Origin: Fuscibacter oryzae
GTDB taxonomy: Bacteria; Pseudomonadota; Alphaproteobacteria; Rhodobacterales; Rhodobacteraceae
Assembly (NCBI RefSeq): GCF_016765795.1
Contig: NZ_JAESVP010000004.1
Location: 62,001-126,000 of the forward strand
Direction: 5' to 3'
Length of the DNA stretch: 64,000 nucleotides
Shown here piece by piece: positions 46,235 to 51,795 of this stretch. Within the stretch, counting starts at the first letter, position 1, and the number at the start of each line of letters is the position of its first letter. The notes beneath the pieces were generated by a model. It saw only the letters and a program-made list of their open reading frames with translations. It did not search any database and was not told where the DNA came from. Both the position numbers and the translations under genes were made by a program.

Positions 46235-46306
46235 TCGGGTGAGGGGGTGAGGGGCGAGACAACCCGGCGCATGGACCTTTTCCATGTGTCGCGCCATACT
46301 CCCGCC

Positions 46307-47530
46307 ATGGAAAACGATGTCCTGATTGTCGGTGGTGGCTTGAACGGCCCCGCCCTTGCACTGGCCCTTGCGCAAGGCGGGCTGACTGTCACTGTGGTCG
46401 ATGCCCGGCCAGCGCCCGCGCGGGCCGAGGCGGGGTTTGACGGGCGGGCCTATGCGCTGGCCGTGGCCTCCAAACGGTTGCTTTCGGTTGTTGGTGTCTG
46501 GCCCCGACTGGCAGACAAGACCCAGCCGATCCTGAAGATCGTTGCCAGCGACGGGCGGGCTGGCGAAGGGCCAGCGCCGTTTTTCCTGACTTTTGACGCC
46601 GCCGAGATTGAAGAAGGCCCGATGGGCTTCATGGCGGAAGACAGGCACCTTTATGCGGCCTTCCTTGCCGCGATGGCCGAAGAGCCGCGCATCCGCCTGA
46701 TTTCGGGTCAGACGGTCGTGGCGCAACAGGTTGGTCCTGCGGGTGTAAGCGTCACCCTGGCCAATGGCGACAGCCTGACCGCCAGGGTTCTGGTGGGCTG
46801 TGATGGCCGCACCTCTGGCGTGGCGCAGCGCGCGGGCATAAGGCGGCAGGGCTGGGGCTATGGCCAGACGGCCTTGGTCGCGGCAGTGCATCACGAACAG
46901 GACCATCACGGTACTGCGCATCAGTTCTTCATGCCCTCTGGCCCTCTGGCCATTCTGCCGCTGCCGGGGGGGCATCATTCCTCGATCGTGTGGAGCGAAC
47001 AGGACGACACGGCAAAGGCGATTCAGGCGCTGGACGATGCCGCCTATCTGGAGATCTTGCGCCCGCGCTTTGGGGATTTCCTTGGCAAGATCGCACTGGC
47101 GGGGGACCGTTTCACTTATCCCTTGAACCTGACCCTGGCCGAGAAATTTGTAGTGCCCCGCATCGCGCTGGCGGGCGATGCGGCCCATGGGGTGCATCCG
47201 ATTGCCGGGCAGGGGCTGAATCTTGGATTGCGCGACGTGGGGGCCTTGGCGCAGGTGCTGGTAGAGGCGGCGCGGCGGGGCGAGGATATCGGCGCGATTG
47301 ACGTGCTGGAGCGGTATCAGACATGGCGGCGGTTCGATTCCACCTCGCTCGCCTTGGGGATGGATACCGTCAACCGGGTGTTTTCCAACGATAACCCGCT
47401 GTTGCGGTTGGGGCGCGATATCGGGCTGGCGGCGGTCAATGCGCTGCCCGGGCTGCGGCGCGGTTTCATCCGGCAGGCGGCCGGGCTGAAGGGCGATCTT
47501 CCGCGCCTGCTGGCGGGGCAACCAATCTAG
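46307..47530 (+). CDS. UbiH/UbiF/COQ6-family FAD-dependent hydroxylase
   Basis: This 407-residue flavoprotein monooxygenase has the FAD fold DVLIVGGGLNGPALALALAQGG at the N-terminus, the DG motif region LVGCDGRTSGVAQRAGI and the second FAD motif RIALAGDAAHGVHPIAGQGLNLGLRDVGAL. This is the pattern of ubiquinone-ring hydroxylases acting with O2 and NAD(P)H. Which ring position it modifies is not clear. The ATG at 46307 directly precedes the FAD fold; an ATG at 46271 is a possible longer start. Confidence 0.9.
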   Translation: MENDVLIVGGGLNGPALALALAQGGLTVTVVDARPAPARAEAGFDGRAYALAVASKRLLSVVGVWPRLADKTQPILKIVASDGRAGEGPAPFFLTFDAAEIEEGPMGFMAEDRHLYAAFLAAMAEEPRIRLISGQTVVAQQVGPAGVSVTLANGDSLTARVLVGCDGRTSGVAQRAGIRRQGWGYGQTALVAAVHHEQDHHGTAHQFFMPSGPLAILPLPGGHHSSIVWSEQDDTAKAIQALDDAAYLEILRPRFGDFLGKIALAGDRFTYPLNLTLAEKFVVPRIALAGDAAHGVHPIAGQGLNLGLRDVGALAQVLVEAARRGEDIGAIDVLERYQTWRRFDSTSLALGMDTVNRVFSNDNPLLRLGRDIGLAAVNALPGLRRGFIRQAAGLKGDLPRLLAGQPI

Positions 47531-47576
47531 CGGTGGGCGCTTGGAACCCATTCATGGCCGGTGTAGCCTGCGCCTC

Positions 47577-47960
47577 ATGGCCCAGACCCCCTTTGCCCCC
47601 GGACTGCATCTGCTGCTTGACCTATACGGCGCCACACATCTTGACGCGGTGGCAGAGTTGGAGTGCGTCTTGCGACGGGCAGCCGAACGTGCCGGTGCGA
47701 CGGTGATCGCCAGTCATTTCAAGCATTTCGGCGGCGGGGGCGGGGTGACTGGCCTCGTTCTGTTGGCCGAGTCCCACATCTCGATCCACACATGGCCCGA
47801 GATCGGCTTTGCCGCGGTTGATATCTTCATGTGCGGCGCGGCCCGCCCCGATCTGGCCTGGCAAGAGATCGAGGCCGCGCTAAAGCCAACCCGCACGCAC
47901 CTTTCCCGGATAGAGCGGGGCACCGATCACTTGAACCAGGCATCCCACCCGGCGCTGTAA
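47577..47960 (+). CDS. speD: S-adenosylmethionine decarboxylase proenzyme
   Basis: This 127-residue protein is the short bacterial (SpeH-type) AdoMet decarboxylase. The self-cleavage site is LAES-HISIHTWPE, with Glu65-Ser66 where the pyruvoyl group forms, followed by DIFMCG containing the catalytic cysteine. It makes decarboxylated AdoMet, the aminopropyl donor for spermidine synthesis. Its 3' end overlaps by 34 bases the 3' end of the convergent spermidine-synthase-like gene, so the two polyamine genes are tail-to-tail. No strong ribosome site precedes the ATG at 47577; an in-frame TTG at 47541 would lengthen it by 12 residues. Confidence 0.92.
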   Translation: MAQTPFAPGLHLLLDLYGATHLDAVAELECVLRRAAERAGATVIASHFKHFGGGGGVTGLVLLAESHISIHTWPEIGFAAVDIFMCGAARPDLAWQEIEAALKPTRTHLSRIERGTDHLNQASHPAL

Positions 47961-49480
47961 TATCCCACCAGCGCATGGGATTGCAGCCGGTTCACATCAG
48001 CGGGCATATCCGCCTCGTCTGGCCCAAAAACCTGTGCCGCGCGCCAGACCTCGGGCGTGGCATAGCGCAGGCCATCCGGCAGATGAATGTCGCGCGGGGT
48101 CAGTGGGTGGGCTGCAACCAGCGTAAACCCCCAATCGCCAAAGCTGGGCACATAGACATGATAGGGCAGCACCCACAGCCTGCCGCCGGGCACAAATGGA
48201 TTGCGCGTCGCCTGCAAGGTGTGAACCACCGACCAATAGCCCTGCCGCGCGAACAGCGGAGAGCCGGATTGCACCACCATCACCCCGGTCGCCGACAGCC
48301 GCTCTGCCAGCATGGCATAGAATTCCTGAGTATAAAGCTTGGACAGCGCAATCGACTTTGGGTCCGGCAGATCAACGATGATCACATCGTAACTGTCGCG
48401 GTTTTCTGCCGCAAAGGCCCAGGCATCGCCCGTCACCACCGTCATGCGCGGGTCGTTCAGCGATCCTGCGTTCAGCGCCACAAGATCGGCATGGCTGCGA
48501 AACAGCCCCGTCACGGCCCCATCCAGATCGACCAGTGTAACCGCCGCCACATCGGCGCTGCGAAACACCTCGCGCGCGGCCAGCCCGTCACCACCGCCCA
48601 GGATCAGCACCTTTTGCCGACGGGGGGCCAGCGCCATCGCCGGTTGCACCAGCATCTCGTGATAGCGGTATTCGTCCTGACTATCGAACTGGATCGAGGC
48701 ATCCAGAAAGAACCGGGTCCGGCCCTGAAACCGCGTCAGGGTCAGGTGCTGATAGGGGCTGTCTTGTGACAGGATCACCTCATCCTCGAAGAGGCTGGCC
48801 TCAACCACCGACACCATCCGTTCCGATTGCACCAGAAAAACCGACAGGGCGCACAGCGCCACGGCCCAGACCACCACCAACCCGCGCGAGACCTGCGCCC
48901 GAAACAGCCAAAGTGAGATACCCGCGACCAGCAGGTTCAGCACCCCGAACGAAAGCGAGGCCGACATCAACCCCAGATGCGGCACGATCAACAATGGAAA
49001 CGCAACCGAGGCCGCAAGCGCACCAACGTAATCGACACTCAGCACATTCTCGAACCGGAAGGCCGCCGCGCCCACCTCTTTCAGAACGCGGGCAATCAGC
49101 GGAATTTCCATCCCGCACAGAATGCCGGTCAGAACCAGAAACAGATACAGCGGCAGTTCAACCTCGCCCATCCAGGCATAGGCAAAGAACATGACGGGCG
49201 CCATGCAGCCGCCGATCACCCCCAGCGCGATCTGTGCCCAGACAAAACCGCTGACCGCGCGGTCCACAAAGCGCGTGACCCAGGCCCCCAGCCCCATCGA
49301 GGCCAGAAACACCCCGATGACCAAGGAAAACTGCCGCACGCTGTCGCCCAGCAGATAGCTGGACAGGGTGGCCGCGACCAATTCGTAAACCATTCCCGCC
49401 GCCGCCACGAGGAAGGTGGCGGCCAGCAGCCAGATCTCGCGCCCGCGCCCGTGGGGTGGGCCATCGTCCAAAGGCGTCAT
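47927..49480 (-). CDS. speE: Membrane-anchored spermidine synthase-like protein
   Basis: This 517-residue protein has an N-terminal membrane domain of about seven hydrophobic segments (first IWLLAATFLVAAAGMVYELVA, then FSLVIGVFLASMGLGAWV) and, from about residue 230, a spermidine-synthase-like domain with ILGGGDGLAAREV, TLVDLDGAV, VTGDAWAFA and DVIIVDLPDP, the aminopropyltransferase motifs. It should transfer an aminopropyl group at the inner membrane surface. The start at 49480 overlaps the DUF350 gene by ATGA. It is the last gene of an operon with DUF350 and DUF4178 proteins, and speD faces it. Confidence 0.9.
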   Translation of the reverse strand: MTPLDDGPPHGRGREIWLLAATFLVAAAGMVYELVAATLSSYLLGDSVRQFSLVIGVFLASMGLGAWVTRFVDRAVSGFVWAQIALGVIGGCMAPVMFFAYAWMGEVELPLYLFLVLTGILCGMEIPLIARVLKEVGAAAFRFENVLSVDYVGALAASVAFPLLIVPHLGLMSASLSFGVLNLLVAGISLWLFRAQVSRGLVVVWAVALCALSVFLVQSERMVSVVEASLFEDEVILSQDSPYQHLTLTRFQGRTRFFLDASIQFDSQDEYRYHEMLVQPAMALAPRRQKVLILGGGDGLAAREVFRSADVAAVTLVDLDGAVTGLFRSHADLVALNAGSLNDPRMTVVTGDAWAFAAENRDSYDVIIVDLPDPKSIALSKLYTQEFYAMLAERLSATGVMVVQSGSPLFARQGYWSVVHTLQATRNPFVPGGRLWVLPYHVYVPSFGDWGFTLVAAHPLTPRDIHLPDGLRYATPEVWRAAQVFGPDEADMPADVNRLQSHALVGYYSAGWDAWFK

Positions 49481-49701
49481 GAATGCAGGACAGCCGCGAT
49501 GATGATGGCCAGCGACACAAAGACCGATCCGATCAGCACGGCAAGGGCGGTGTTCTGATCCTGCTCGATCTCTCGCACCACCGGAAAGGGCGCGATCTTG
49601 GTGATCAGCCACCAGCACAGGCCCATCAGGCCAACGCCAAGGGCGGTATAAAAGATCGTCGAGACGACCTCAGCAGGGTTGATAGCCGAAAACAGGGTCA
49701 T
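49477..49701 (-). CDS. DUF350 family membrane protein
   Basis: This 74-residue protein has two hydrophobic spans, EVVSTIFYTALGVGLMGLCWWLI and ALAVLIGSVFVSLAIIIAAVL, joined by a charged loop (TKIAPFPVVREIEQDQNT). It fits DUF350 (YjfL-like), but with one two-span unit where many members have two. The ATG at 49701 follows GAGGG by about 8 bases; an in-frame ATG at 49716 overlaps the previous small gene. It overlaps the spermidine synthase-like gene by ATGA. The function of DUF350 is not established; it recurs with polyamine and DUF4178 genes. Confidence 0.82.
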   Translation of the reverse strand: MTLFSAINPAEVVSTIFYTALGVGLMGLCWWLITKIAPFPVVREIEQDQNTALAVLIGSVFVSLAIIIAAVLHS

Positions 49702-49712
49702 GCCGTTTTCCC

Positions 49713-49874
49713 TCATTTGACGTTTGCGTTCTGAAATGTGTTGCCGCCGCTGCCAAGACGGATTGAGCGGTCGGTATCCAGGCTTTCGCCGCCGATGCCC
49801 ATATAGCCCAGATAGGCGGCCCCCGATGACACCAGCAAAGAGCTGACAACAAAGACCGTGCGAACAAGGTTCAA
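49713..49874 (-). CDS. Small membrane/exported protein, 53 residues, TTG start
   Basis: I found this gene by translating the gap between the DUF350 and DUF4178 genes. TTG at 49874 overlaps the DUF4178 stop (TTGA), a GGGGGAG ribosome site lies about 8 bases before it, and the frame ends with TGA 11 bases before the DUF350 start. The product has a basic/hydrophobic N-terminus (NLVRTVFVVSSLLVSSGAAYLGY), a single membrane span or signal peptide, and a polar, glycine-rich tail ending NTFQNANVK. The coupling on both sides is the same as between all other genes of this operon. I do not recognise a family. Confidence 0.7.
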   Translation of the reverse strand: MNLVRTVFVVSSLLVSSGAAYLGYMGIGGESLDTDRSIRLGSGGNTFQNANVK

Positions 49875-51196
49875 TCGTCATCTCCCCCAGCATCGGTGTC
49901 TTCGTCTTCCCAGTCCGATCCGCTCCATCGTTCTTTCTCGCGCAAAGAGCGGCGCAGGAAAAGGCCGCCGCCGATCAGCGCAAACAAGGTTGCCAAGCCC
50001 AGAGTGGGAAAGGCGGTCGCCGCCCCGGCGCGGGCGCTGACGGTCAGGGGCGGCGGCGGCATGGTTGCGGTGGTTTCCCCGATGCCACGCTCTGGCAGGT
50101 CAATCTCCATCATATAGCGGCCGGGCTCTTCGGGGCGAAACCGCAACTGGCTGCCCTCGTAACTTTCGGTCCAGCTTCCATCGCTGTCATGGCCGGAAAA
50201 CCGGCCCAGTTCCCGCCCGATCTGAAACATCGGCTGGTCGTCGGGGTCACTGACCGTCACCTCCAGCCAGGCCCAGGTGTTATCATTCAGATCGCCGCGA
50301 AAGTTCACGACCGTCAATCGCCCCGCCTGATCAACCTCCAGCGGCAGTTCAACGGGCAACTGGGCCGCCGAAAGGCGGGTTGGTGGCAGGATCTGATGGC
50401 CTGACATGCTGGCGAAAACCGCGCTTAGCAGCAGGCCAAGCCCGGCAAAGGCTGCTGCTGCTGCGATCAGAAACCGCTCGTTCGGGGGTTCGCCAATGGT
50501 CTCAAGGGGGTGGCGCCCAAGTGCGCGCACTGGAGCGGCAGCAAATCCGAACGATTGCCACAGCGCGGTCTGCGGCGGCAGAACCGTGCGCTCCACCTCG
50601 CGCTCTGCCCCGGTTTCGGTGAACGACAGCATCGCGTCACTGCCAAGCAGGGTGATGGTGGTGGCGCGGTCGCCGATATGGGGCCGCCAGGTGAACTCTC
50701 CTTCGGCAAAGGTGATCCGCGCCTTTGACGTTTCGTAATAGGCATAGCTTTGCCCTGCCAAGCGGACCTGCGGGCGGCTGGTTGAGGTTTCGACCGCGAT
50801 CTCGCTGACCCAGCCCGGCTGCGTGCCCTGACGCCAGCGGCGGGTCAGGAACAGGCGTCTCGCTTCCAGCGTCAGCCAGGAATAGCCGTGGGTTGGCGAA
50901 TAGATCAGATGGTCGGTCCAGTCCCAGCTTTTGCCATCCGCCTCTTCGCGCCAGCCCAGAATGCCGATAATCTGATGGTCAACGCCCAGAACCTTGCCGC
51001 TGTCACCAATTTTAAGCGGTGTCTCCGGGCGCGGCATTTCGGCAAATTTGCTAAGGACGCGATACCCTGCGACGGCATCAAGCTCGGAACTGCAATAGCC
51101 GCAGATCTGGCTGACCACCCGGCCACCGCCCAGCACATTCAGCCCCGCCCCGCAGTTGGGGCAGCTTATGGCGGCAGGGGAACTGGCGGATTTCAT
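49871..51196 (-). CDS. DUF4178 protein with zinc ribbon and two membrane spans
   Basis: This 441-residue protein starts with a zinc ribbon (ISCPNCGAG...QICGYCSSE, about residues 10-38), then a DUF4178-type beta-rich domain (LKIGDSGKVLGVDHQIIGILGWREE...YSWLTLEARRLF, about 60-200), a membrane span near residues 242-265 (FLIAAAAAFAGLGLLLSAVF), an outside beta-domain of about 130 residues and a second span (FPTLGLATLFALIGGGLFL) before a short acidic tail rich in Asp and Glu. The function of DUF4178 is unknown. It overlaps the second DUF4178 gene upstream and the 53-residue gene downstream, in an operon with DUF350 and a spermidine synthase-like enzyme. Confidence 0.82.
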   Translation of the reverse strand: MKSASSPAAISCPNCGAGLNVLGGGRVVSQICGYCSSELDAVAGYRVLSKFAEMPRPETPLKIGDSGKVLGVDHQIIGILGWREEADGKSWDWTDHLIYSPTHGYSWLTLEARRLFLTRRWRQGTQPGWVSEIAVETSTSRPQVRLAGQSYAYYETSKARITFAEGEFTWRPHIGDRATTITLLGSDAMLSFTETGAEREVERTVLPPQTALWQSFGFAAAPVRALGRHPLETIGEPPNERFLIAAAAAFAGLGLLLSAVFASMSGHQILPPTRLSAAQLPVELPLEVDQAGRLTVVNFRGDLNDNTWAWLEVTVSDPDDQPMFQIGRELGRFSGHDSDGSWTESYEGSQLRFRPEEPGRYMMEIDLPERGIGETTATMPPPPLTVSARAGAATAFPTLGLATLFALIGGGLFLRRSLREKERWSGSDWEDEDTDAGGDDD

Positions 51197-51795
51197 GCCA
51201 CCGTCACCTCGAACGGATCAACCCAGGTGCCCAGAAACCACGTCCAACTGTCAGGGCCACTTTCGCCCGACAGCAAGCTGCCGTCATTACCCGTGCAATT
51301 GACAAACCGATAGCGGTCCCCGACCCGCAGGATTTCCGGGAAAGACCCTGCAAGTGCCACGCATTCGGCCTCTTCCACCTCGGTCACGCTGAACCAGCGG
51401 CCGTCGGCGCCAACCTCTGCACCCAATGTTTCGGCTGGGGCGGTCTTGGGTGCGTCGGTGGCTGACAACGGGCGCTGAATCACGACATCGCCTTCGTCAA
51501 CCGAGATCCAGACCCCACCGTCTTGGGTTTCGGCCCAGAATTCATCCCACTCTCCCCGGCCATAGCTGAACCGGGCCTGTCCGCGTGGAAAATAGGTCTG
51601 CCCGCCAATCGTGACGCTTTGGCCCAATCGGATCAGTTGCGCCGTATCGTGCATCACTCCCGCCTGACCGGCCAGCACGAACTGATCGTCCTGCAAAAAT
51701 GATGTGGTGCCGCAATGCACGCAACTGACCATTTTAAGGGCCTTGAGCCTTGGTCCAAGGCCCGCACCGCATTTTGGACAGTTCATCTCGGTCAT
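51193..51795 (-). CDS. DUF4178 protein with N-terminal zinc ribbon
   Basis: This roughly 200-residue soluble protein has a zinc ribbon with two CxxC pairs (NCPKCGAG and SCVHCGTT, first 35 residues) followed by one DUF4178-like domain (LIRLGQSVTIGGQTYFPRGQARFSYGRGEWDEFWAE, then GGVWISVDEGDVVIQRP). It is the first gene of the leftward operon and overlaps the larger DUF4178 gene by ATGA. The start is uncertain: ATG at 51795 and 51786 both lack a clear ribosome site. No function is established for the domain; a regulatory or scaffold role on the membrane complex is a guess. Confidence 0.8.
   Translation of the reverse strand: MTEMNCPKCGAGLGPRLKALKMVSCVHCGTTSFLQDDQFVLAGQAGVMHDTAQLIRLGQSVTIGGQTYFPRGQARFSYGRGEWDEFWAETQDGGVWISVDEGDVVIQRPLSATDAPKTAPAETLGAEVGADGRWFSVTEVEEAECVALAGSFPEILRVGDRYRFVNCTGNDGSLLSGESGPDSWTWFLGTWVDPFEVTVA

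Follow-up and report, generated by a model that had tools for sequence, protein, structure and literature searches.

An operon in the genome of Fuscibacter oryzae (Rhodobacteraceae) encodes a spermidine synthase homologue fused to seven membrane spans (TM-SpeE), a DUF350 protein, two DUF4178 proteins and a 53-residue membrane peptide whose last residue is a lysine. Together with the facing gene speD, it occupies positions 47577–51795 of the window, the whole stretch of 64,000 nucleotides analyzed here (contig NZ_JAESVP010000004.1, positions 62,001 to 126,000). We propose, with slightly better than even confidence, that TM-SpeE aminopropylates the C-terminal lysine of the peptide. The proposal builds on the gene content, on the conserved catalytic residues of the enzyme, and on a C-terminal lysine that is near-universal in TM-SpeE systems and absent from the sister tails that were read. 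This type of cluster, and the broad idea that it acts on something other than putrescine, are already in print; the new element is the lysine end as substrate. The genes of the system are as follows.

47577..47960, plus strand: speD, S-adenosylmethionine (AdoMet) decarboxylase, supplier of decarboxylated AdoMet (dcAdoMet); PF02675, 112 bits; TIGR03330, 117.3 bits (cut-off 75.65)
47927..49480, minus strand: TM-SpeE, 517 residues, seven predicted spans followed by an aminopropyltransferase domain; NF002956, PF01564, AlphaFold2 and Foldseek
49477..49701, minus strand: DUF350 protein, 74 residues, one unit; PF03994, 44 bits
49713..49874, minus strand: 53-residue peptide with a TTG start, one membrane helix and a tail with a final lysine; proposed substrate
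49871..51196, minus strand: DUF4178L, 441 residues, with zinc ribbon, DUF4178, helix, beta domain, helix and acidic C-terminus; PF13785, 49.8 bits
51193..51795, minus strand: DUF4178S, 200 residues, with a zinc ribbon (CPxCG...CxxC in the translation); PF13785, 62 bits

The C-terminal lysine was followed through 106 TM-SpeE loci: the window, five loci of the host family, 20 loci of a phylum sample and 80 named-genome loci. The phylum sample comprised 200 genomes, 22 of which (own genome included) have a TM-SpeE above the cut-off; 20 of the 21 others were read. The named-genome loci are the best 80 of 546 confirmed TM-SpeE loci. The taxa covered include Pseudomonadota, Campylobacterota, Bacteroidota, Acidobacteriota, Gemmatimonadota, Myxococcota and others. 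Peptides were picked by a blind rule that accepted same-strand open reading frames (ORFs) of at least 35 residues ending between 150 nt upstream of the DUF350 domain start and 20 nt inside it, and chose among them by the strongest hydrophobic stretch, without use of the last residue. At loci with a single-unit DUF350, 67 of 72 picks end in lysine. The five others (L075, L076, L090, L099, L100) are overlapping wrong-frame ORFs, and the peptides at these loci end in lysine. The background frequency, taken from non-overlapping ORFs of at least 150 residues in the same loci, is 71/915 (Fisher P = 2e-58, ignoring relatedness).

An earlier rule with a reach of 260 nt was dropped. It gave a final lysine in only 32 of 85 cases because it took the DUF4178 gene, which ends about 210 nt upstream; the reach was then narrowed to 150 nt and the rule limited to single-unit DUF350, with the last residue still blind. 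A filter on glycine and serine content alone found lysine tails in 31 of the 80 named loci, since many tails are less rich in these residues. The final-residue count for this filter is 31/85 lysines on the gene strand versus 5/104 on the opposite strand (Fisher P = 4e-8).

Look-ups beyond the 72 blind-rule loci (the rest of the 106, the plasmids and G121) were made with the lysine pattern known. A lysine-ended tail protein is present at all 13 loci with a longer or multi-unit DUF350, and at seven (L053, L089, L097, L116, L131, L132, L133) of the 21 loci that lack a usable DUF350. Genome-wide searches for the other 14 located a DUF350 in 13 (DUF4178 was searched in six), and a tail gene adjoins one of these domains in 12. 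Overall, 104 of the 106 loci or their genomes encode a lysine-ended tail, as does G121, which was initially left out of the set. In a plasmid hold-out read after the pattern was fixed, the tail was found in 12/12 near-full-length records, near-duplicates among them (two from Tritonibacter mobilis, two from Alteromonas mediterranea); nine tails are on the SpeE strand, and three, all in Burkholderia records, lie in a divergent DUF350-DUF4178 operon. We regard the lysine-ended protein, with high confidence, as a real and selected part of the system.

Apart from its end, the tail drifts. The seven host-family peptides share the helix, an Arg-x-Gly-Ser/Thr stretch and the final lysine (7/7), but little else. 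The lysine of the 67 blind-rule tails is preceded by histidine (26), glycine (26), valine (9) or isoleucine (6), and the same four residues are the only ones at this position in an enlarged set of 112 tails, of which 45 were selected for ending in lysine. This enlarged set contains 102 distinct sequences over the last 10 residues, and 100 of its members have no aspartate or glutamate in the last 16. The codons for the final lysine are AAA (49) and AAG (18), followed by TGA (32), TAA (27) or TAG (8); with every lysine and stop codon represented, it is the amino acid that is under selection. Around eight soluble-type SpeE loci, no lysine-ended tail rich in glycine and serine was found within flanks of at most 1.5 kb, using a filter that 55 of the 72 blind-rule picks pass.

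The carrier is a one-helix peptide of 45–90 residues, a DUF4178 protein with the tail at its C-terminus (in Variovorax and relatives), or a protein of 300–600 residues. One such peptide, of 48 residues from Novosphingobium, is annotated at NCBI only as 'hypothetical protein'. The carrier on two Alteromonas mediterranea plasmids (L210, L229) is a lipoprotein-like protein of 510 residues, and these clusters adjoin genes for a cytosine methyltransferase and a toxic-anion-resistance protein. On plasmid p1 of Novosphingobium sp. ES2-1 (L207:2583-10374), the cluster adds an SPFH protein upstream and the gene of an FAD-dependent oxidoreductase between TM-SpeE and speD; the oxidoreductase is perhaps an oxidase of the modified end. 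Three Burkholderia loci (L208, L212, L228) have TM-SpeE alone, accompanied by a divergent operon for DUF350, a protein whose end we take to be SHOCT-like, DUF4178 and the lysine-tail protein.

Such additions bear on a quite improbable alternative, in which TM-SpeE has some other protein as its target and the lysine end is linked to something else (e.g. through an isopeptide or in some other conjugate). A free lysine end would suit conjugation, and clusters can gain FAD oxidoreductase, SPFH or SHOCT-like proteins. However, the operon in the window contains no ligase, and TM-SpeE is its sole PF01564 enzyme.

The enzyme itself has the hallmarks of an aminopropyltransferase, as expected from the preliminary description of a spermidine synthase fused to seven membrane spans. 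It passes the model NF002956 ('polyamine aminopropyltransferase') with 598.5 bits over residues 14–515 (cut-off 472), and scores 111.5 bits with PF01564 (Spermine_synth). The AlphaFold2 model, built from a 24-sequence alignment, has a mean predicted local distance difference test (pLDDT) value of 91.5; its helices fit seven spans followed by the aminopropyltransferase fold, and its Foldseek matches are aminopropyltransferases. Across the 106 sequences, the aspartate of the dcAdoMet motif GGGDG (D298) is invariant, as are H274, Q264 and R303; D370 is present in 104 and Q404 in 102. The acceptor-side loop differs: PTYPSG in B. subtilis SpeE is replaced by PSFGDWGF in TM-SpeE, with F447 in 102/106 and W450 in 104/106. 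This pattern fits a donor site that is kept and an acceptor site that has changed. Moreover, TM-SpeE falls below the cut-off of the soluble SpeE model TIGR00417 (123.3 vs 249.55 bits).

These features allow another, fairly unlikely explanation to be weighed, namely that TM-SpeE is an ordinary membrane-anchored synthase of free polyamines, coupled to an envelope sensor formed by DUF350, DUF4178 and the peptide, with the lysine end serving for binding only. The NCBI family name and the intact catalytic residues agree with it, and sensing of polyamine concentration is also considered in the main text of Ravi et al. 2024 (PMC11237479). On the other hand, the failure to pass TIGR00417 and the altered acceptor loop speak against it, and it leaves the invariant lysine end unexplained. 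The genome also has carboxyspermidine genes. Its carboxynorspermidine/carboxyspermidine decarboxylase passes TIGR01047 with 409.7 bits, scored together with its neighbours (cut-off 409.05), and 41 bases past that gene begins a saccharopine-dehydrogenase-like gene, which by sequence and place is probably CASDH. With a carboxyspermidine route of its own, the genome need not obtain spermidine from SpeE. The preliminary description had suggested a lipid, peptide or exported amine instead of free putrescine as acceptor. An acceptor other than putrescine is partly and indirectly supported by the carboxyspermidine genes, the altered loop and the finding that TM-SpeE is the sole PF01564 match in the genome; among the candidates named, a peptide is favored over a lipid or exported amine in view of the near-invariant lysine at the end of the peptide that the operon itself encodes.

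A role as a methyltransferase of protein ends is very improbable. The fungal enzyme NHMT provides the model, having the same layout of seven spans and a spermidine synthase-like domain and acting on a protein terminus, as described in the text available of PMC10349129. According to the same text, however, NHMT lacks the acidic residue of the GxG(D/E)G motif, which in TM-SpeE is D298 in 106/106 sequences. Also, SpeD accompanies TM-SpeE in 46 of 49 genomes searched (of 50 selected).

All six genes named in the preliminary description are present, and the Pfam matches of speD, TM-SpeE, DUF350 and both DUF4178 proteins are above the curated cut-offs. The assignments thus hold for every gene except the peptide, which has no Pfam match at E 0.1 and nothing above cut-off in NCBIfam. 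What had been called a five-gene overlapping operon contains three four-base overlaps by coordinates (DUF4178S/DUF4178L, DUF4178L/peptide and DUF350/SpeE), but the peptide and DUF350 genes are separated by a gap of 11 bases. The tail-to-tail position of speD is as described, the 3' ends of speD and TM-SpeE overlapping by 34 bases. The ESHxxIHTWPE and cysteine regions of the speD protein align with the T. maritima enzyme 1tlu. The flanking window genes scanned encode an FAD monooxygenase and a sugar-binding regulator. The FAD-binding monooxygenase gene (window 46247-47577) is on the speD strand, with the speD start 46 bases beyond; since they share a strand at this distance, speD may be co-transcribed with it rather than with the SpeE operon.

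DUF4178L has two hydrophobic stretches and an AlphaFold2 model with a pLDDT of 90.1. Its zinc-ribbon cysteines (C12, C15, C32, C35) are invariant in 22 sequences. Comparison with the PDB gave no confident match, the query TM-score being at most 0.20 among the 50 listed. DUF4178L proteins lacking the tail have a conserved acidic C-terminal stretch (RW-x-x-SD...DDD), opposite in charge to the peptide tail.

The cluster is accessory in the host family, since any DUF350 occurs in only 7 of 100 family genomes (one per genus, own included); the F. oryzae genome has a single copy. Five of the six other DUF350-bearing genomes have the cluster, and for the remaining one (G090, with a 142-residue DUF350) none of the window's proteins was found within 13 kb. 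Conservation of gene order, which the preliminary description had set as a test, is borne out: DUF4178-DUF4178-peptide-DUF350-SpeE is the order in 7/7 TM-SpeE loci read in the host family. The position of speD varies. It faces SpeE in the window and L043 only, lies downstream in the same direction in L042, and was not found near the other four family TM-SpeE loci. In the 200-genome sample, all 13 genomes with DUF4178 also have TM-SpeE, which is present in 22 of the 200 (hypergeometric P = 6e-15, uncorrected for relatedness). No TM-SpeE relative was confirmed among viral contigs; three partial phage matches reach 34–39% query coverage.

The reaction that we infer, including its acceptor atom and the parts played by the other proteins, would proceed as follows. 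SpeD would make dcAdoMet, whose aminopropyl group TM-SpeE would move onto the last lysine of the peptide, at its epsilon-amine; in other bacteria, the final lysine of a DUF4178 protein, or of some longer protein similarly tailed, would be the acceptor. With its N-(CH2)4 arm, the lysine side chain matches putrescine. The product, N6-(3-aminopropyl)lysine, would cap the flexible, acid-poor Gly/Ser/Arg tail with a spermidine-like side chain. The DUF350 and DUF4178 proteins may serve to hold the substrate or to present it, and the membrane or envelope may be where the cationic tip acts.

The membrane setting also suits an unlikely alternative: TM-SpeE may aminopropylate a lipid head group or another membrane amine, with the lysine peptide as a substrate-guiding subunit or regulator. 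The enzyme, the peptide and DUF350 are all membrane proteins, and the broad wording of the preliminary description and of the literature permits this reading. However, no amine-lipid gene is seen in the operon, to which the check for lipid genes was confined, and this reading would leave unexplained why lysine persists as the last residue of tails that otherwise drift.

Charge distribution suggests on which side the proposed transfer to the peptide would take place. Loops 2-3, 4-5 and 6-7 are richer in lysine and arginine than loops 1-2, 3-4 and 5-6 in 103 of 106 TM-SpeE proteins; with seven spans, the catalytic domain would therefore face outward. The long tail proteins have one span before the tail (three in L138), with an odd count in 19/19, although L083, L102 and L130 among these are probably over-extended short peptides. 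With an odd number of spans, tail and zinc ribbon would be on opposite sides of the membrane. We consider the chances about even that this is a new modification, in which a membrane SpeE aminopropylates a protein C-terminal lysine, probably at the outer membrane face, to give a spermidine-like protein end. The seven-span domain may, as part of this reading, bring dcAdoMet to the outer face.

Several points weigh against lysine aminopropylation. The conserved lysine could be a recognition or sorting end rather than an acceptor. The predicted topology would place both the enzyme and the tail on the outer side, a location from which dcAdoMet is not known; the seven spans may carry the donor across, or modification of the tail may precede its export. 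SpeD is encoded outside the operon in most host-family loci, and 3 of the 49 TM-SpeE genomes searched (two Sulfurovum metagenome-assembled genomes and one Frackibacter draft) gave no SpeD match. A search for class-2 AdoMet decarboxylase in these three is uninformative, as it gave no match in its controls either. The tail gene lies away from the TM-SpeE locus in 12/106, and no tail was found for L103 and L145, whose DUF4178 contigs end early. DUF4178 is dispensable, having no match in nine of the 22 TM-SpeE genomes. Finally, the Fisher and hypergeometric P values are too small because the sequences are related. The SpeD-less genomes (L075, L076, and L132 from Candidatus Frackibacter) have both TM-SpeE and a lysine tail, which raises the question of their aminopropyl donor.

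The overlooked operon peptide makes testable the question of what the membrane spermidine synthase fusions modify, which was raised in Ravi et al. 2024 and reportedly before that in 2019. If the proposal is true, it would add a new protein modification, explain the retention of SpeD where spermidine has another route, and give DUF350, DUF4178 and a sister operon of E. coli a shared logic, the placing of polyamines on the ends of envelope proteins.

The closest described system is the operon of 7TM-SpeE, DUF350, DUF4178 and a lipoprotein with PspA and CesT/Tir proteins, reported in the main text of Ravi et al. 2024 (PMC11237479), where aminopropylation of other substrates is already suggested. 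TM-SpeE fusion, DUF350 and DUF4178 are common to both operons. In contrast, PspA and CesT/Tir are absent from the window genes scanned (the rest of the genome was not searched). A one-helix peptide occupies the place of the Ctha_1186-type lipoprotein and may or may not belong to that type. The word lysine does not occur in the main text of that paper, which therefore notes no lysine end, the supplementary tables lying outside this check. Literature searches, which took in neither supplementary files nor most subscription papers, gave no C-terminal lysine acceptor for TM-SpeE among the matches listed. Li and colleagues, in 2019, are said to have described an MFS-spermidine synthase fusion with SpeD, linked to DUF350, and to have proposed a substrate other than putrescine. 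Reportedly, SpeD was functional, spermidine was absent and the fusion did not complement an E. coli speE mutant; no protein substrate is reported to have been named.

As for the chemistry, hypusine and silaffin offer parallels in a lysine epsilon-amine extended by a polyamine arm, made by other enzymes on internal lysines. Fungal NHMT, an endoplasmic reticulum enzyme, resembles the proposed system in combining seven spans and a spermidine synthase-like domain with protein-end modification, and its layout agrees with an outward catalytic domain of TM-SpeE; unlike TM-SpeE, it methylates an N-terminal histidine and lacks the acidic motif residue, as far as the available text of PMC10349129 describes it.

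The sister operons ygiBC and yjfIJKLMC of E. coli contain DUF350 (YjfL), the PspA-like YjfJ, and a membrane protein or lipoprotein with a Gly/Ser/Arg-rich tail beside an enzyme that places polyamine on peptides. YgiC and YjfC bear the RefSeq name peptide--spermidine ligase; polyamine on protein ends thus has a precedent in a DUF350 operon. This naming reportedly goes back to Pederick and colleagues in 2023. YgiB and YjfM are the probable substrates. The window likewise combines DUF350 with a tail, but the E. coli enzyme is an ATP-grasp ligase, not a SpeE, and YgiB and YjfM end in GG instead of lysine. No ATP-grasp ligase is found among the window operon genes scanned, and DUF1190 has no match in the genome. 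DUF1190 lipoproteins (YgiB, YjfM and relatives; L166:745-1416, L167:8388-9026, L168-L192) have tails rich in glycine, serine and arginine and served as a control: none of 25 picks ends in lysine, although seven picks are wrong ORFs and ATP-grasp adjacency was checked in E. coli only. The 18 readable tails end in glycine (13) or serine (5), and these ends are likely the acceptor ends for peptide-spermidine ligases. On the outer-face proposal, two unrelated enzymes, the ATP-grasp ligase acting on Gly/Ser ends and TM-SpeE acting on lysine ends, would be a case of convergence, both giving membrane proteins with a polyamine tip that DUF350 serves.

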